Assembly: GCF_014323725.1 (NCBI RefSeq)
Contig: NZ_JABVED010000010.1
Coordinates: 124,001 to 188,000, forward strand
Direction of reading: 5' to 3'
DNA length: 64,000 nucleotides
Source: Actinokineospora xionganensis
GTDB taxonomy: Bacteria > Actinomycetota > Actinomycetes > Mycobacteriales > Pseudonocardiaceae
Of the stretch, positions 1 to 13,875 are shown piece after piece. The position numbers and the translations under genes are program-made. The notes beneath the pieces are model-generated. The model was not told the DNA's origin, ran no database searches, and saw nothing but the letters and a program-made list of their open reading frames with translations. Numbering within the stretch: position 1 is the first letter of the stretch; each line of letters starts with the position of its first letter.

Positions 1-286
1 TCATTACGAGGTTATGGTCATCCTCGACCCCACACTCGACGAGCGCACTGTCGCTCCGTCGCTCGACACGTTCCTCAACGTGATCCGCACGTCGGGCGGA
101 AACGTCGAGAAGGTCGAAATCTGGGGCAAGCGTCGCCTGTCCTTCGAGATCAAGAAGCACGCCGAAGGCATCTACGCCGTGCTCGACATCATCTCGGAGC
201 CGGCGGCTGTGAAGGAGCTGGACCGCCAGCTGTCCCTGCAGGAATCCGTGCTGCGGACCAAGGTCATGCGGCGCGAGAACGCCTGA
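1..286 (+). CDS. rpsF: 30S ribosomal protein S6, 5'-truncated by window edge
   Basis: S6 binds the 16S rRNA platform together with S18. The frame is already open at base 2 and reads His-Tyr-Glu-Val before the Met at base 14. The family starts Met-Arg-His-Tyr-Glu-Val, so only about two codons lie outside the window and the Met at 14 is internal. The visible part covers the RRM-like fold (VMVILDP at the N-terminus, [16 protein letters not shown] in the middle) and ends in the usual basic tail. It is first in the rpsF-ssb-rpsR-rplI operon, 19 bases ahead of ssb. Confidence 0.97.
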
Positions 287-305
287 CGGGACCAGGAGGC
301 AAACG

Positions 306-809
306 ATGGCTGGTGACACGACGATCACGGTGGTCGGAAATCTGACCGCCGATCCAGAATTGCGCTTCACCCCGTCGGGTGCTGCCGTGGCCAGCTTCAC
401 GGTCGCGTCCACGCCCCGCACGTTCGATAAAGCGAGCGGCGAGTGGAAAGACGGCGAAGCGCTCTTCCTGCGGTGCAACATCTGGCGACAGGCGGCCGAG
501 AACGTGGCCGAGTCGCTGACCCGCGGTTCGCGGGTGATCGTGAGCGGACGGCTCAAGCAGCGGTCTTACGAGACCCGCGAGGGCGAGAAGCGCACGGTCA
601 TCGAGCTTGAGGTCGACGAGGTCGGCCCCTCGCTCAAGTACGCGACCGCCAAGGTCAACAAGGTCAGCCGAGGCACCGGTGGTGGCGGCGGCGGTTACGG
701 CGGCGGTGGCTCCGGCCAGTCCGCTCCGCCCGCTGACGACCCGTGGGGCTCCGCACCTCCGTCAGGCGGCGGTGGCGGCGGCGGCTTCAACGACGAGCCT
801 CCTTTCTAA
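306..809 (+). CDS. ssb: single-stranded DNA-binding protein
   Basis: SSB coats single-stranded DNA during replication, recombination and repair and recruits partners through its C-terminal tip. The protein has 167 residues. An N-terminal OB fold spans about residues 1-115 ([21 protein letters not shown], then [14 protein letters not shown]). A flexible linker very rich in Gly with Pro, Ser and Tyr follows, and the acidic tip ends DEPPF as in actinobacterial SSBs. AGGAGG lies 6 bases before the ATG. Its place between rpsF and rpsR is the conserved bacterial arrangement. No paralogue is visible in the window. Confidence 0.97.
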
Positions 810-7076: not shown

Positions 7077-10000
7077 TCAGCCGATCGGGAAGTGCCCGAA
7101 CACGCCGGCGAGCTTCGCCTTGGTGTCGTCCAGCGAGGGCAGAGCCGGCGCACCCGTGCGGGGGGCCGGGGTCGCGGGCAGGGCCACCGGAGCCTTCAGA
7201 CCCGCGAGGGCGGGGGTCTGAACCGGCAGCTTGTCCAGCTTCGGAGCCTGGAACAGGTCACCCGAGAACACGCCGCGCAGGTTGTCCAGGCCGGGCATGG
7301 CCGGAGCAGCGAAACGCGGGGCGGGCTTGGGGGCGGTCGGCGCGGGCAGGTTGACCTTCTTGCCGTTCAGCTGGCCGGTCACACCGGTCAGGCCGGACAG
7401 CGGGTCGCCGGTCACCGGCTCCTGGATCGACGGCGCGCCGCCGAGTCCACCGGTCATGCCCGAAAGCGAGTCGGGGCCGAAACCACCGGGCAGACCCGAG
7501 AGCGATCCGCCACCGGCTCCGCCGAGCAGGCCACCGAGCAGGCCGGAGAGCGGGTCGGCCGCACCGGTGCGGGCGTTGCCGGCCATGGGCAGCGAGCCCA
7601 GACGCGGCATCGAGGGCAGCGTGGTGGCCTCGAGGCCACCGGCCTGCGGCAGGTCCAGCTGCGGGGTGTCCTCGCCCACGGTGATGTTGCTTTCGTTGGT
7701 GGCGAAGGTCATCGCCTCGGCCAGAACCTCGACCGGCACGTCGTAGATCGGCGCGTTGACGCCGATCGGCAGGTCGCCGTCGATGCCCGACAGGCTGCCC
7801 ATGTCACCGGAGGTGGTGGAGGCGCCACCCACGGAACCGTTGGTGACGCTGTCCGAGGCGGCGATCGAGTCGCTGAACAGCGCGGCCACGGCGTCGCCGT
7901 GCGGCTGCACGACGGCGGCGGCGGGAACGTCGAGCAGGTTGCCCGAGAGGTTGGCGTTGTCGCCGCTGGTGGTGATGTCGCCACCGGACGTCGCGTTGGT
8001 GTCGTTGGTCGCGGCACCGGTGGCCATGCCACCGGCGGCCGAAGCGGCGTCGCCGAAGGCCTGCACGATCGGCAGCGCCTGCGCGGCGACGACGTTGCCC
8101 GCGAGCGAACCGTTGTCGCCGTTGGTGTCGACGGTGCCGCCCGCGTCCGACATGGTGACGTTGTGGGAAGCGGCGTCGTTGTGGCCGAGCACCGCGGCCG
8201 AGTCGCCGAAGGCCTGGACGGCCGAGGCGACCGGAACGGAGACGACGTTGCCCGTGCCCGTGCCGTCCTCGCCCGAGGTCTGCGCGTAGTCGCCCGCCTC
8301 GGAGTCGACGGTGTTGCGGCCTGCCTGGTCGCCGTCGCCGACGACGGTCGCGCCGCTGGACAGGACCTGCGTCGGGATCGCGACGGGAGCCTGGGCGATG
8401 TTGCCCGCCAGGGTGCCGCCGTTGCCCTTGGCCTTCGAGTAGCCGCCCGCGTCGACAGTGCTGTCGGTGTCGCTGTAGGCGAACGTGTCGGCGACGAGGC
8501 CGCCGCCGTTGCCCGCGACCTGGACCGGACCCGCGACGGGAACGTTCGCCAGGTTCGAGGCCAGGACGCCCGCGTCGTCGTTGGTGCTGCTGTCGCCGCC
8601 CGCGCTGGCCGTCTTGGTCTCGGTCACGGTGGAGTTGGTGCCACCGATGACAGCCGCGGTGTTCGCCAGGCCCTCGACCGGAACGGCGACCGGAACGGTC
8701 GCGGCGTCGCCGCCGACGACGCTGTCGTTGCCGGTGGTGCCGGTGAAGCCGCCCGACTCGGACGTGCTGGTCGCGATGCAGGTCGCGTCGGCCTGGCCGC
8801 CGCCCGCACCCGTGTTGCCGCAGGCGTCGATCGGGGCGGTGACCGCCGGGACGGCCGCGAGGCCGCCGCCGACGCTGTTGTCGCCACCGGTGTAGGAGCT
8901 GCCACCCGCTTCGGAGGTGACGTCGGTGGTGGTTTCGGTGACGGCGGTGCCGACCAGCGATCCGGCGTTGGCCGTGGCCTGGGTCGGGATGGCGACCGGC
9001 GCGTGGCCGATAGCGCCACCGATCACGGACTCTTCACCGTTGGTGAGGTTCGAGCCGCCCGCGACGGCGTCACCGCTGGTGGCGCACATCGTGGTGGCGA
9101 TGCCGACGACCGCGGCGGCGTTGCAGTCCACGGCGACCGGGCCCGCGAGGGCGGGCTGCAGGATGTTGCCGGAGCCGACAGCCTCGTCGCCGTCCGTCTT
9201 GATGTAGGCGGGCTCGTCGTAGGTGTCGCTCGACTGGGCGTCACCGGCCTGGGCGTAGGCGTCGCTGGCGGTGAGTGCGTCGGCGATGCCGATGACGGTG
9301 ACGGCGTTGCCGTTGCCCTGCACCGGGACGGCCACGGGAACCGCGCCCGCGTTGCCCGAGAGCACGCTCTCTTCGCCGTCGGTGACGATGGTGCCGCCGG
9401 AGGTGGCCTCGGAGTAGCTGGCCGAGTCGGTGGTCGCGATGCCCCCGCCGGAAACGGCGTTCCCGTTGAGCTGCACCGGGGTGGCGCCGTGGCCCGCGAG
9501 GACGTTGCCCGACAGCACGCCTCCTTCGCCGTCGGTGACAATGTCACCGTTGGCGGCCGCGGACTGCGACGACGTGTTGTACGAGTCGGCGGTGCCGCCC
9601 GCGGCGATCGCGTTGCCGGTGATCTGGATGGGCGCAGCCCACGCCAGGGCGACGACGTTGCCCGCGAGGGTGCTGTCCGACCCGTCGGTGACGACCGGGG
9701 TGCCGTGGTGGTCCGTCTGGTCCGAGGAGTTCTCGACCGAGGCGTCGCCGAGGATGGCGATCGCGTTGCCGGAGATGTCGATCGGGACGACCAGGTCGCC
9801 GACGATCTTGTTGCCGCGGAAGAGGTCGTCTTCGGTCCCGATGGACTTCGGCGAGACACCGGCGGTCGGGTCGAGGACACCGTTGACCGGCGCGAGGCCG
9901 CCCGTGGCGGGCAGGCCGGTGGGGAGCTCGGCGGGCAGCCCGGTGGTGGGCAGGCCCGTGGTGGGCAGGCCCGTGGTGGGCAGAGCCTCCGTCACGCCCT

Positions 10001-10430
10001 GGGTGCTCGGCAGTCCGCCAGTGGTGGGCAGTGCGCCGGTCAGCTTGTCCGTCGCGGGCAGCGCCTCGGTGGACAGCGGGGCAACACCGTTGGTGCTGGT
10101 CAGCGCCGAGGGCATGCCGCCCGCGGTGGGCAGCCCGGAGGTCAGGCCATCCGTGGCGGGCAGCGCCGGGGCGGCACCGCCGGTGGCGCCTGCCAGGTCA
10201 CGGGGCGTGATCGTGATGTCGTGGTTGACACCACCGAGGTTGTGCTGACCGAACGGGGTGCCCAGCGCGTTGTTGTCGATCTTGATCGGCACGCTGACCG
10301 AACCGTCCAGGGCGGACGGCGGGAGGTCGGGGTTGAAGCTCTCGTCAGCGGACGCGATGCCGGTACCGAGCATCAGCATTCCGCCTGTGACCAGCGCGGT
10401 CTGGAATCCGCGCTTCGCCCAGATATGCAT
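7077..10430 (-). CDS. Giant secreted chaplin-like repeat protein
   Basis: A 1117-residue exported protein. The start is the ATG at 10430, with GAAGGAGA 8 bases upstream; an in-frame ATG at 10457 would place that site inside the gene. A Sec signal peptide (about residues 1-29, ending GIASA) is followed by a short unique domain and a Pro/Thr/Leu/Gly-rich tract with repeated LPTTG-type pieces. Then come 14 consecutive units of about 51 residues, and a Gly/Leu-rich tail. Each unit has the pattern (S/A)GN-hydrophobic-P(V/I)-x-GNA-x-x-(V/I)G followed by an Asp/Thr/Ser-rich turn. That is the pattern of chaplins, the hydrophobic amyloid-forming coat proteins of aerial hyphae, but only two units keep a Cys pair. 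No LPXTG sorting signal or transmembrane anchor is visible. A surface-fibre role is inference. Confidence 0.75.
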   Translation of the reverse strand: MHIWAKRGFQTALVTGGMLMLGTGIASADESFNPDLPPSALDGSVSVPIKIDNNALGTPFGQHNLGGVNHDITITPRDLAGATGGAAPALPATDGLTSGLPTAGGMPSALTSTNGVAPLSTEALPATDKLTGALPTTGGLPSTQGVTEALPTTGLPTTGLPTTGLPAELPTGLPATGGLAPVNGVLDPTAGVSPKSIGTEDDLFRGNKIVGDLVVPIDISGNAIAILGDASVENSSDQTDHHGTPVVTDGSDSTLAGNVVALAWAAPIQITGNAIAAGGTADSYNTSSQSAAANGDIVTDGEGGVLSGNVLAGHGATPVQLNGNAVSGGGIATTDSASYSEATSGGTIVTDGEESVLSGNAGAVPVAVPVQGNGNAVTVIGIADALTASDAYAQAGDAQSSDTYDEPAYIKTDGDEAVGSGNILQPALAGPVAVDCNAAAVVGIATTMCATSGDAVAGGSNLTNGEESVIGGAIGHAPVAIPTQATANAGSLVGTAVTETTTDVTSEAGGSSYTGGDNSVGGGLAAVPAVTAPIDACGNTGAGGGQADATCIATSTSESGGFTGTTGNDSVVGGDAATVPVAVPVEGLANTAAVIGGTNSTVTETKTASAGGDSSTNDDAGVLASNLANVPVAGPVQVAGNGGGLVADTFAYSDTDSTVDAGGYSKAKGNGGTLAGNIAQAPVAIPTQVLSSGATVVGDGDQAGRNTVDSEAGDYAQTSGEDGTGTGNVVSVPVASAVQAFGDSAAVLGHNDAASHNVTMSDAGGTVDTNGDNGSLAGNVVAAQALPIVQAFGDAASAAGGMATGAATNDTNATSGGDITTSGDNANLSGNLLDVPAAAVVQPHGDAVAALFSDSIAASDSVTNGSVGGASTTSGDMGSLSGIDGDLPIGVNAPIYDVPVEVLAEAMTFATNESNITVGEDTPQLDLPQAGGLEATTLPSMPRLGSLPMAGNARTGAADPLSGLLGGLLGGAGGGSLSGLPGGFGPDSLSGMTGGLGGAPSIQEPVTGDPLSGLTGVTGQLNGKKVNLPAPTAPKPAPRFAAPAMPGLDNLRGVFSGDLFQAPKLDKLPVQTPALAGLKAPVALPATPAPRTGAPALPSLDDTKAKLAGVFGHFPIG
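7663..9825 (-). repeat. 14-unit tandem coding repeat (about 153 bp each) in the chaplin-like gene
   Basis: Degenerate tandem repeat at protein and DNA level. Units start with sequences such as FRGNKIVGD, LAGNVVALA, LSGNVLAGH, LSGNAGAVP, GSGNILQPA, LAGNIAQAP and GTGNVVSVP. Units 5 and 7 contain two Cys each (DCNAAAVVGIATTMC; ACGNTGAGGGQADATC). Spacing is close to 51 residues throughout, with one longer unit (unit 4) and a truncated final unit. Nucleotide identity between neighbours is modest, so recent slippage is not obvious. Confidence 0.75.
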
Positions 10431-10591
10431 CTGGTGTTCTCCTTCTCGGTTTCCCATTGCTGGGGCTACATGCGGGTGACCGGACGCGAAACCGCGTCGG
10501 GGCAGCGGCCACCTGCGTTAAGGGGTGCGGGAACTAACCCGCGGGGGGTGAAGGCACGACCTGGGCATGCCGATCTACGCGCATGAACCCA

Positions 10592-10627: not shown

Positions 10628-11428
10628 TCAGTCGGGAGTGACGCCGGGCTGCTGGCCGACGGTGACGGGGACGTGAACCTGGGCCGAGCGCGAAGCATCG
10701 GCGGTGTTCAGGTCAGTGCCCGACGGAACCGAGGAGAGCAAGCCGAAACTCGGCGCGTCCACGGAGTTGGCTCCGGAGTGTCCGGTGCCAACGGGGGCGG
10801 GGATGCTCAGCGGCGCCAGCGGACTGGTGCCGCGGGGCATGACCGGAGCCTCGTCTGAGGTCTCCGGCGAACCTCGCCGGTTCATACCGTCGCTGAGAGC
10901 GCGGTCAACCGCGCTCGCGACGGCGTTCTGGTCGATCGCGCCAGGCCGCACCCCGACAAGAGTGGTGGCCTTGGCGATCGACGCACCGGCGACGGGCGCG
11001 GTGACGGCGGAGCCGTCAGGCGCGTCGACGCCGGGATCGGTCACTCCGGGGAACTCGACCTCGTCCACGTCGTCGATCGCGTCGACCGGGAGCGTTGCCG
11101 CGTTCTCGAAGTGCTCGGTGATCTTGTGGCCGAACGCGTCGAAAGCTTCCTTCGCGTGTTCGCCGAAGTTCGGGTCAGACTCGCCGATGATCCGGCCGAT
11201 GCTGCCGGTGAGTCCAGAGACCACCGGGAGATCCATGGGCGCGGGAGCGGTCTGAGTGCCTTCGGACGGGAACATCTGGAAGTCGAACGACGTGTCCGCC
11301 GTTGCGGAGGCCGACGAGATGGCCCAGGCCGCCGCGGTTGTGGCGACAGCGCCGCCGAGGACCATGAGCGAACGGGAAAGGGCACGCCGCAGTGCTGCGG
11401 TCGCCTTCTCCGTCTTCGCTCGGTCCAC
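10628..11428 (-). CDS. Secreted protein of unknown function
   Basis: A 266-residue exported protein without a recognisable family. The start is a GTG with no strong ribosome binding site. The N-terminus has basic residues, a hydrophobic core (LMVLGGAVATTAAAWAI) and an Ala-x-Ala cleavage region near residue 45. The mature part is rich in Pro, Ala, Asp and Ser, with no cysteine and no transmembrane helix. It is transcribed in the same direction as the chaplin-like gene, 197 bases upstream of it, so the two may act together at the cell surface; that link rests on position only. Confidence 0.6.
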   Translation of the reverse strand: MDRAKTEKATAALRRALSRSLMVLGGAVATTAAAWAISSASATADTSFDFQMFPSEGTQTAPAPMDLPVVSGLTGSIGRIIGESDPNFGEHAKEAFDAFGHKITEHFENAATLPVDAIDDVDEVEFPGVTDPGVDAPDGSAVTAPVAGASIAKATTLVGVRPGAIDQNAVASAVDRALSDGMNRRGSPETSDEAPVMPRGTSPLAPLSIPAPVGTGHSGANSVDAPSFGLLSSVPSGTDLNTADASRSAQVHVPVTVGQQPGVTPD

Positions 11429-11631: not shown

Positions 11632-13875
11632 TTAACCGCGTTTGAGCACGCGGGTCGCCCCAGCCGCCGCCGTGGTGGCCAGGATCCAGCCCACGGCGAT
11701 CAGCGCCCCCGCGATCCACTGCGACGCCCCGACCATCCGCCACTTGTTGTCCTGACCGAGGTCGACGATGGGCAGCAGCAGGTCGGTGGCCAGCAACGGC
11801 GGATTCCAGACCGGGTTGACGTCGGCGTCGAGCTTCTCCATCACATGGGTGTTGAACCAGAGCAGGCCCAGCAGCCAGAACAGCAGCAGCCACACCATCG
11901 CCAGCCACGGCCGGTAGCCGTAGCCGACCGTCCACTCCTGGAGCCTGCCCCACATCCGCCCGGCGACGTTGAGCTCGGCGTAGCGCCTGCGCTGGCGTTC
12001 GAGCTGGACCAGCTGGGCCCGCTCCTCGTCGCCCCCGCCCGCGTACACGGCGGCCAGCTGCTCATATGGCCCCGGAGCGAAGTCCGGCTGGACCGCGCGA
12101 AGCCAGGCGAGGCGGGTGCGGACCGACACCTCGGGATGCGAGGTGATGGCGGTGAAGCTGAAGTCCTCGAGATCGATCCCGCCGCGGGCGGCCCAGAGTC
12201 CTGGCCCGTCTATGACCGACACGACGGACGCGCGCGTGAGCACCACTTGCCCGCGCGGGGGTCGGCGCGGTGAGAAGGCGAGGACGAGTTCCTGCGCGGT
12301 CAGCCCGTAGGCCGACAGCGACTTGTCGGTGACCGGGTGCTTCGGGTGCGTGCGGCCACCGAGCCGGGCGCCGCCGAAGGTCGCCATCTTGCCGACCTCC
12401 ACCAGCCGGACCCGGACGCCGCCGATCGCCAGGAAGCCGTAGCTGCAGAGCAGGTCCTTGCCGATGGTGGCGACCCGGGCGTCCAGTGAGGGCTTGACCG
12501 TTCCGTTGGGGCGCAAGCGCGGCTTGATGAGCCGGGCACCGGAGCAGTCGAGGCTCGACCCGATGTGCGCGTTCTGCAGCCGCACCGATCCGCTGATCCG
12601 GACTTTGCGCAGGAACAAGGTGCCGCCGACGCGGAGCCGGTCCGCGAACAGCACGTCGATCGCGGGCCCGCACAGGCGCGCGCGGGACAGGCTGGCGCTG
12701 CCGTGCACATGGGCGTCGACCAGCCGGACCTGGCCGTAGGTGCGCAGGGCGGTTCGCCGGTCGCCGTCGGAGTCGATCTTGCCGTTGACCGCGCCGCGGC
12801 ATTCGACGTCGCCGAACACCTCGACGCCGTCGCCGACCAGGGCGACCGGCACCCGGTCCACGGCGGTGCCCGAGGCGAACGCGGCGGCCAGCCGGGCGAC
12901 GACATCGCGGCGGCCGATGGTCGCGCCCGATAAGAGGAGGTGCCCGCCGATGCGGGCGCCGCGCAGCCCGACCGCGCCCGCGGCGGTGAACCCGGCGTCG
13001 AGCTTGACGTCGCCGTCGACCCGCAGCCGGTCGGCGTCGAGGACGGTGTGGTCCTCGGCGGTGCCGTGCGGCAGGACCAGGACATGGTTCTCGGTGGCGG
13101 TGCCGTTGTGCAGGTGCGCGCCGGAGAACACGGCGTCGCCGCCGATGCGGGCGCCGGAGAGCAGGACGGTGCCGGTGGCGTCGAATCGGCCGCCGCCGGT
13201 GTCGCACATCAGGTTGCCTTCGACCGCCATGCCGGTGGCCTCGAGCACGGGCCCCGCCGGGTTGGCCATGCGGGCGCCGGTCAGGTGAACGCTGCCGCCG
13301 ATGTTCGCGCCGCGCAGCCGGACCTCGCCGAACGCGCGGGCGGCCACGCCCTGGATGGAGCCGGACACGCGCAGGCGGGCACCGAGCAGGGCGGCGCCGT
13401 TCGGGTTGCGCAGGACCGCGCCCGCGAGCCGCAGCGTGCCTTCGATCGTCGCGTCGGTGAGGTCGAGCACACCGGTGCAGGTGAAACCCGGTTCGAGGAC
13501 CAGGTCGCTGCCCACGCGCAGGTTGCGGGCCTTGACCCCGGGGACCCGGCAGCCGGGCATGGTCAGGCCGACCAGCCGGGCCATCCGCAGGATCGGCGGC
13601 AGTTCGAACGTGCAGCGGCGCAGTGCGATGACGTGGTCGATGGTCCGGCCCTCGATGTCGAAGGAGCCGGTCACGGTGGCGTTGTCCAGGCGCAGGGCGG
13701 GCATCGCGCCCGCTTCGAGCGGGTAGGCCCCGGTCAGCAGAGCCGCGAGCACCGGGCCGCGGACCGGCCTGCCGCCGAGGTCGAGCCTGCTGCCGGTGGT
13801 GAACGCCGAGCGGACCTCGCGCTCGGTTTCGGTCAGCGACGACAGCGACACGTACTGGGGCCCGGCTTCCGTCAC
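11632..13875 (-). CDS. Membrane protein with long beta-helix-like repeat domain
   Basis: A 747-residue protein. After about 55 N-terminal residues, roughly 500 residues consist of short repeats of the type (A/V)xLxGAx(I/V)xGxLxL. Examples are TDATIEGTLRLAGAVL, RGANIGGSVHLTGARM and LSGARIGGDAVFSGAHL. This resembles pentapeptide-repeat or bactofilin-like right-handed beta helices. A charged linker (EERAQLVQLERQRRRYAE) leads to two C-terminal membrane helices (about 640-660 and 720-742). Homologues in Streptomyces are often labelled membrane-associated oxidoreductase, but no cofactor motif is visible here and that label should not be trusted. GTG start; divergent from the AI-2E-type gene. Confidence 0.65.
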   Translation of the reverse strand: MTEAGPQYVSLSSLTETEREVRSAFTTGSRLDLGGRPVRGPVLAALLTGAYPLEAGAMPALRLDNATVTGSFDIEGRTIDHVIALRRCTFELPPILRMARLVGLTMPGCRVPGVKARNLRVGSDLVLEPGFTCTGVLDLTDATIEGTLRLAGAVLRNPNGAALLGARLRVSGSIQGVAARAFGEVRLRGANIGGSVHLTGARMANPAGPVLEATGMAVEGNLMCDTGGGRFDATGTVLLSGARIGGDAVFSGAHLHNGTATENHVLVLPHGTAEDHTVLDADRLRVDGDVKLDAGFTAAGAVGLRGARIGGHLLLSGATIGRRDVVARLAAAFASGTAVDRVPVALVGDGVEVFGDVECRGAVNGKIDSDGDRRTALRTYGQVRLVDAHVHGSASLSRARLCGPAIDVLFADRLRVGGTLFLRKVRISGSVRLQNAHIGSSLDCSGARLIKPRLRPNGTVKPSLDARVATIGKDLLCSYGFLAIGGVRVRLVEVGKMATFGGARLGGRTHPKHPVTDKSLSAYGLTAQELVLAFSPRRPPRGQVVLTRASVVSVIDGPGLWAARGGIDLEDFSFTAITSHPEVSVRTRLAWLRAVQPDFAPGPYEQLAAVYAGGGDEERAQLVQLERQRRRYAELNVAGRMWGRLQEWTVGYGYRPWLAMVWLLLFWLLGLLWFNTHVMEKLDADVNPVWNPPLLATDLLLPIVDLGQDNKWRMVGASQWIAGALIAVGWILATTAAAGATRVLKRG

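Follow-up and report, generated by a model that had tools for sequence, protein, structure and literature searches.

A chaplin-related array of 14 joined units, predicted to form a beta-solenoid, and its conserved partner gene in Actinokineospora and other Pseudonocardiaceae

What might a single exported protein chain of 14 chaplin-like units be for? The question is raised by one gene in a 64,000-nucleotide stretch of DNA of the soil actinomycete Actinokineospora xionganensis (assembly GCF_014323725.1, contig NZ_JABVED010000010.1, positions 124,001 to 188,000), here called the window, to which all coordinates below refer. The gene lies at 7077..10430 on the minus strand, as do all other features given with coordinates, and encodes what we call the array protein. 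We think it rather probable that this protein is a chaplin-related, exported and preformed solenoid of 14 units, which serves as a lasting coat or fibre element of the outer surface and is held there by packing, by its disordered parts and by a partner protein.

The reading frame is open from 7077 to 10457, and an AAGGAG ribosome site precedes the ATG at 10430, so that this ATG is most likely the start of a 1,117-residue protein, in line with the roughly 1,100 residues given in an earlier sequence-only reading of the window. Residues 1-28 (10347..10430) form a signal peptide that is near-invariant among homologues. An ordered N-terminal beta element follows at residues 41-82 (10185..10310), with strands between 41 and 74 and a helix at 76-82. 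A Pro/Thr/Leu-rich linker (residues 86-199; 9834..10175), predicted to be disordered, leads into the core of 14 units (residues 200-924; 7659..9833), and the protein ends in a Gly/Leu/Pro-rich tail (residues 925-1117; 7080..7658) that is mostly disordered, with a short helix at 1100-1111. The core is acidic, with an isoelectric point (pI) of 4.05 and 80 Asp/Glu against 7 Lys/Arg in 725 residues. NCBIfam returned no family at E<=1 for either the array protein or its partner.

Fourteen units and their relationship to chaplins

The core units start at positions 1, 52, 103, 154, 216, 267, 318, 369, 420, 471, 522, 573, 625 and 677 (0-based), a spacing of 51 residues with the exceptions of 62 once and 52 twice. 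Taken from these starts, units 1 to 7 occupy 9678-9830, 9525-9677, 9372-9524, 9186-9371, 9033-9185, 8880-9032 and 8727-8879, and units 8 to 14 occupy 8574-8726, 8421-8573, 8268-8420, 8115-8267, 7959-8114, 7803-7958 and 7659-7802. Compared with itself, the core is 31.0% identical at a shift of 51 and 23.1% at 102, while the maximum over 1,000 shuffled cores and all shifts between 20 and 119 was 15.0%; the periodicity thus exceeds chance, and the 14 units of about 51 residues first counted by eye are borne out by starts, spacing and self-identity alike. The units are on average only 28.7% identical to one another and 46.4% at most, which suggests that the array is old. A recent repeat expansion was rejected on this low mean identity together with the positions that units keep across genera. 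Unit 14 is divergent, scoring on average 83 against its own kind and no more than 29 against the other units.

Within the units, both GN motifs were read in units 1-4 (4/14), one in 7/14 and neither in units 6, 8 and 14. The unit pattern proposed in the sequence-only reading (GN-hydrophobic-P-V-x-GNA-x-x-VG) is therefore a simplification. Its remark that Cys pairs occur in two units alone was accurate for the window protein, where they lie in unit 5 (core positions 237 and 250) and unit 7 (338 and 352).

Searched as a whole, the protein matched the Pfam family ChpA-C at E 2.2e-14 with 53.5 bits in the longer frame, against a cut-off of 21, and with 49.7 bits when started at ATG 10430. ChpA-C was the sole Pfam family at E<=1, and neither the curlin repeat family nor RTX/hemolysin-type calcium-binding repeats appeared at that threshold. 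Searched singly, units 4, 10 and 11 exceeded the cut-off (23.0, 26.1 and 24.8 bits) and units 1, 2, 3, 8 and 9 fell below it (12.7-20 bits), giving some match in 8/14 units; the N-terminal stretch had no ChpA-C match on its own. Among the homologues, 20/23 matched ChpA-C at E<=0.01. In the reverse test, a model of 688 array-family units, including those of the window and leaving out unit 14, matched 15/307 frames at 21.6-42.5 bits and covered 10/10 chaplin loci, whereas the best of 614 reversed or shuffled decoy frames reached 4.5 bits. These 10 loci are the best ChpA-C matches from a 148-genome sample and all come from one family; their assignment to the Streptomyces type is our own reading. 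A relationship to chaplins is supported because the profiles match in both directions, and the chaplin likeness proposed from the letters, which had been staked on profile similarity, stands. A comparison of hidden Markov models between the units and one chaplin gave a probability of 20%, a poor test as it used a single sequence.

The likeness appears to be confined to the 27-residue first part of the unit (GVLSGN..PV..PV..GN...G), in which the first two GN motifs are spaced by 15 residues both in array units and, by reading, in the 10 matched chaplin loci. A stretch ending in AGG...TxG replaces the second half of the chaplin domain with its third GN motif. According to the available part of PMC13251363, the chaplin domain has three GN motifs and two Cys, and according to that of PMC5618241, short chaplins have one domain and long ones two domains and a sortase signal. 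For the array, measured against these two traits of PF03777, we found the first two GN motifs in 4/14 units, no recognisable third and a Cys pair in 2/14; there are 14 units, and no C-terminal sorting signal was read. Since these two defining chaplin features were tested and are lacking, we do not class the protein as a chaplin proper. The source genome gave three ChpA-C matches at E<=0.001, all inside the array protein, and no ordinary chaplin was found.

Compared with the Streptomyces chaplins (PF03777), coat proteins whose self-assembly into amyloid takes place on aerial hyphae, the array shares export, the 27-residue stretch, the 15-residue GN-GN spacing and a Cys pair in some units. It differs in having 14 units rather than one or two, a length of 1,117 residues, Cys in 2/14 units, another second unit half, no sortase tail, and its own signal peptide and partner gene. 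The sequence-only reading had allowed known chaplins one to three units; this did not hold up, as the chaplins of S. coelicolor are built of one or two domains (PMC5618241, available part), yet chaplin-like proteins with more units exist in other actinobacterial families. Seven such frames, among the matches listed from 148 sampled genomes, have 4-10 units above 5 bits. Like the array they carry tandem units, and 4/7 of their signals begin MRTWAK or MRTWVK, close to the MQTWAKRG of the array. They have fewer units than the array and are richer in Cys. Read by eye, 7/7 finish in a hydrophobic stretch with a basic end, preceded by LPxTG or LAxTG in three. Four frames from one other family (L176, L177, L178 and L181 in our locus numbering) have 6-8 chaplin-like units, with Cys pairs in many of the units, the MRTWAK/MRTWVK start and a hydrophobic and basic C-terminal segment, and a 719-residue frame in another family of the order (L180, G040:C4) has 10 units and an LPVTG-type C-terminal tail. 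The array is thus a long, unanchored variant of the chaplin-like multi-unit proteins, set apart by its length, near-fixed unit number, lack of an anchor-like tail, mostly Cys-free units, frozen signal peptide and partner tail.

Predicted fold of the core

Does the core fold as one body? AlphaFold2, given an alignment of 57 natural rows (the window and 56 of 78 named homologous loci, four long Kibdelosporangium arrays and others being left out), produced a continuous all-beta fold for the core with a mean predicted local distance difference test score (pLDDT) of 92.2 and a predicted template modelling score (pTM) of 0.88. The five core models ranged from 82.6 to 92.2 in pLDDT, and the strand pattern is largely alike across all units. 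The core is accordingly predicted to be a continuous beta-solenoid, one of the two forms that the sequence-only reading had suggested. A full-length run on 41 rows (the window and 40 of the 78 loci) gave a mean pLDDT of 75.8 and a pTM of 0.72, with residues 86-199 and 930-1098 below 50 and residues 41-82 ordered (ten-residue means of 84-97 over residues 41-80). That linker and tail were called disordered indicates that AlphaFold2 is able to call disorder here.

We compared the models with known structures by VIA, which covered the candidates supplied by Foldseek and so leaves room for fold families outside its tables. CsgA of Pontibacter korlensis (PDB 8c50) ranked first in both comparisons, for the core model 1..725 at Z 15.7 with an rmsd of 8.2 over 321 aligned residues (next row 10.8) and for the full length at Z 14.2 with an rmsd of 8.0 over 316 (next row 10.4), and it aligned along the whole 14-unit core, although middling Z values between repeat proteins may mean little. 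This CsgA has 15.5 repeats and a pI of 2.98, and it is a poor binder of thioflavin T (PMC10192328, available part). Because it aligns end to end with the 14-unit core, one 51-residue unit probably corresponds to about one solenoid rung, and with rungs taken to be 4.8 A apart, the rod would measure about 7 nm in length. CsgA resembles the array in acidity and, going by the prediction for the array, in its stacked-rung fold and probable rung number, and differs in its repeat of about 23 residues (355 over 15.5) against 51; no sequence relationship is reported. Sequence searches of the PDB gave no relative for the array-family profile at E<=1, nor for the one chaplin domain searched at E<=10.

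It is improbable, in our view, that the solenoid is an artefact of AlphaFold2 and the array a disordered or loosely ordered chain. AlphaFold2 is reported, in the available part of PMC11795689, to give confident yet unrealistic solenoids for perfect repeats, the question of imperfect repeats being left open by its authors. The present units, however, have diverged to 28.7% identity and were modelled from 57 natural rows; the core length is near-fixed in 68/78 loci, the Cys are mostly paired, and linker and tail come out as disordered when the full length is modelled. Independent hints of a solenoid come from the near-fixed unit length, from the one large insert of the window protein, which coincides with a loop modelled at low confidence (core 202-206, unit 4), and from the pairing of Cys. 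Across the 57 rows, units 1, 5, 6 and 7 have at least two Cys in 22, 11, 12 and 33 rows and exactly one in none, as would be expected of disulfides within units. Several results nevertheless count against the predicted solenoid besides the known bias of the program: none of the 31 Foldseek matches in the PDB reached E<=0.001, Asp/Glu make up 9.9% of the predicted strand residues, and a single Cys occurs in units 3, 4, 8 and 9 in 2, 1, 1 and 2 of the 57 rows.

The acidity of the core (80 Asp/Glu against 7 Lys/Arg) would also suit a calcium-stabilised beta-roll of RTX-like or S-layer-like type that folds outside the cell on meeting calcium. By eye, loops such as TGNDSVVGG look similar to those of RTX proteins, and the S-layer protein RsaA is present in both VIA tables, at Z 7.3 and 8.7 for the core and full-length models. 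Yet ChpA-C is the one family in the Pfam scan, and RsaA scores no better than unrelated solenoids, which leaves the beta-roll with little probability.

A conserved locus: signal peptide, partner gene and distribution

How widely, and in what company, is the array found? A whole-protein search matched 37/61 genomes, namely 16/16 of the genus (A. xionganensis included), 19/21 from other genera of the family and 2/24 from the rest of the order; in five (G016, G020, G025, G027 and G028) the N-terminus alone matched. NCBI places Actinokineospora in Pseudonocardiaceae, and a core-profile search found the array in 82/150 genomes and 27/46 genera of this family, so the distribution that the sequence-only reading had wished to see checked turns out to be wide. 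The 78 named loci, kept from the best 80 of 177, come from Actinokineospora, Actinophytocola, Labedaea, Herbihabitans, Amycolatopsis, Prauserella, Tamaricihabitans, Lentzea, Haloechinothrix, Kibdelosporangium, Qaidamihabitans, Actinosynnema, Umezawaea, Saccharothrix, Thermocrispum, Solihabitans and metagenome assemblies. Core length is 717-736 residues in 68 of them; five cores are longer by about one unit (776-786) and one measures 748. Four Kibdelosporangium loci (L083, L093, L096 and L098) have cores of 923-927 residues, about 200 residues or four units longer. In 602/784 comparisons, against 56 expected at random, unit k of the window protein had its best counterpart in unit k of the homologue. 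This near-fixed length and unit-by-unit match imply that the array probably predates the split of these genera and has stayed near-constant in length since. To our knowledge, none of the organisms in a published account of chaplin-like proteins belongs to Pseudonocardiaceae, and we found no description of chaplin-like proteins of this family among the papers listed from the open-licence literature. The available part of that account names chaplin-like proteins outside Streptomyces (PMC4255298).

The signal peptide has the consensus MQTWAKRGxQTALVTGGLLMLGTGIASA. Across 23 sequences its mean pairwise identity is 90% against 44% for the core, and 0/100 core windows of 28 residues exceeded 58%. 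These values come from the window and 22/28 homologue frames listed by the whole-protein search (this set omits L013, L016, L019, L028, L031 and L037, and two fragments, L032 and L033, were never on the list), since the named loci had been found by signal-peptide patterns and were unsuitable; homologue start codons were located with a regular expression around the signal-peptide motif. In 12 Actinokineospora sequences, the same residue was encoded by the same codon at a rate of 0.72 in the signal peptide and 0.81 in the core. As codons are not specially conserved, the constraint appears to act at the protein level, and these rates lend no support to a DNA- or RNA-level cause of the frozen sequence. 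A search for further copies of the signal peptide in the genome gave five matches at E 0.28-1.6, which we took as chance.

Directly upstream of the array gene lies the partner gene (10628..11428), which encodes 266 residues with a signal-peptide-like start and ends in the heptapeptide QPGVTPD (10631..10651). Partner homologues occur in 16/16 searched genomes of the genus; their sequences diverge widely apart from the signal-like start and the last seven residues, and Pfam gave no family for the partner at E<=1. Among named loci with upstream flank, a protein with this type of tail precedes the array in 77/77, ending in QPGxxPD-stop in 76 and in RPGVTPD in L082. The tail DNA pattern occurs once in the source genome, at this partner, and in 100/150 family genomes. 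Of the 82 array genomes, 74 have the pattern, and in 70 it lies on the array strand no more than 2 kb upstream. Sequence and its statistics thus show the partner with its tail and its linkage to the array.

The pattern also occurs in 26 genomes with no detected array. Eight array-less genomes were inspected (G016, G020, G025, G027, G028, G206, G280 and G292), and in each the partner-like frame with the tail is succeeded by an exported protein that is shorter and differs in make-up from the array; the signal peptide of this protein is of the same kind in G020, G027, G028, G206 and G292, a variant in G016 and G025, and altered in G280. The locus hence seems more general than the array, which would be its chaplin-bearing version. 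A partner-like frame ending in QPGxxPD thus persists without an array at L164-L168, L170, L172 and L175. In one Actinokineospora genome (L169, G008:C74), the array protein has shrunk to a 732-residue frame in which the signal peptide and remnants of the last units survive; this is a natural array loss within the genus.

Between the two genes, a hairpin at 10471..10520 (-25.8 kcal/mol over 50 nucleotides, an energy given without a shuffled control) has the form GGGTG..GACGC-loop-GCGTC..CACCC; by eye, several of the listed sequences carry similar hairpins and others do not. It could be a transcript-stability or regulatory element, and Rfam, riboswitches included, gave nothing at gathering thresholds in the window. 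Beyond the partner, 11632..13875 encodes a 747-residue pentapeptide-repeat protein (Pfam Pentapeptide_3, 8.4e-11) whose C-terminal part reads as hydrophobic. It has a match in 50/92 array loci, several of which are one place entered twice; identity is 52-97% in the 45 rows listed out of these 50. On the other side of the array, the opposite strand encodes a GGDEF protein in 38/92 loci and a LigB-type protein in 45/92.

A possible role at the cell surface

Sequence and statistics likewise show the array, its relationship to chaplins and the constraint on its signal peptide. The solenoid is predicted, and amyloid assembly, multimer formation, a surface coat, the function and the partner's role are what we infer. 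A dedicated, near-unchanging Sec-type signal peptide would export the array protein, and the 14 covalently joined units would then stand as one preformed beta-solenoid of about one rung per 51-residue unit, a rigid acidic rod that would be a durable component of a coat or fibre on the outside of hyphae or spores. Read by eye, the C-terminus has neither a membrane segment nor a sortase tail, as the sequence-only reading had also stated; an anchor made of a C-terminal LPxTG-like motif, a hydrophobic stretch and a basic end is absent, LPTTG being confined to the disordered linker (9834-10175). The linker holds three copies of LPTTG, and the genome has four sortase-family matches. Because no sortase-type tail was seen, the rod is probably retained through solenoid ends that stack or rods that pack side by side, through the disordered linker and tail, and through the partner. 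The partner may act as an organiser, and its fixed QPGxxPD tail is likely to be its signal for docking or for processing.

Among the rival accounts, the strongest is a capped stalk that stays unpolymerised. Here the solenoid would be the passive, rigid stalk of a wall-bound adhesin or spacer, and linker, tail or partner would do the binding. Adhesin-stalk solenoids are indeed among the fold matches (Vag8 at Z 10.8 and Ag43 at Z 8.7 in the VIA core table). In the full-length table, 14/50 rows start at model residues 31-67 and continue into the core (CsgA starts at 238), so the ordered residues 41-82 may cap one end of such a stalk, while the divergent last unit would suit a cap at the other. 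Chaplin ancestry, however, points to assembly, no anchor was seen, and CsgA stands above the adhesins in both VIA tables; we regard the stalk as rather unlikely, and the lasting coat or fibre element as the better account.

A more elaborate form of the latter, which we hold to be doubtful, is a two-protein surface system that differs from the Streptomyces one and in which a prebuilt 14-rung chaplin fibre with a private signal peptide is anchored, capped or licensed by the QPGxxPD partner. The N-terminal strands, carried on the 114-residue linker, could dock onto the end of the next molecule and join the rods head to tail.

Some findings at the level of units and locus weigh against a chaplin-related coat element served by this partner. 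Units 5, 6, 7, 12, 13 and 14 have no Pfam match singly, so that the unit-by-unit chaplin likeness expected in the sequence-only reading holds above the cut-off for three of the 14, weakly for five and not for these six. The reversed tail pattern, a composition control, occurs in 25/150 genomes, and some of the 100 genomes with the pattern may thus have it by chance. The pattern is not adjacent to the array in 4/74 genomes (G239, G289, G305 and G320), and eight array genomes lack its exact form (G004, G021, G031, G213, G242, G267, G304 and G326). In the genomes that keep the partner without the array, the array is dispensable for whatever role the locus has.

The 14 covalently joined, imperfect units and their confident predicted fold make the array a tractable stand-in for chaplin stacking; if the two-protein fibre reading is true, the array reveals the way in which chaplins are stacked in their amyloid, with each domain making one rung. 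The near-frozen signal peptide and the QPGxxPD tail have the look of components of an export or assembly pathway of which we found no description in the open-licence literature. Taken together, the array suggests how filamentous actinomycetes without ordinary chaplins may coat themselves.

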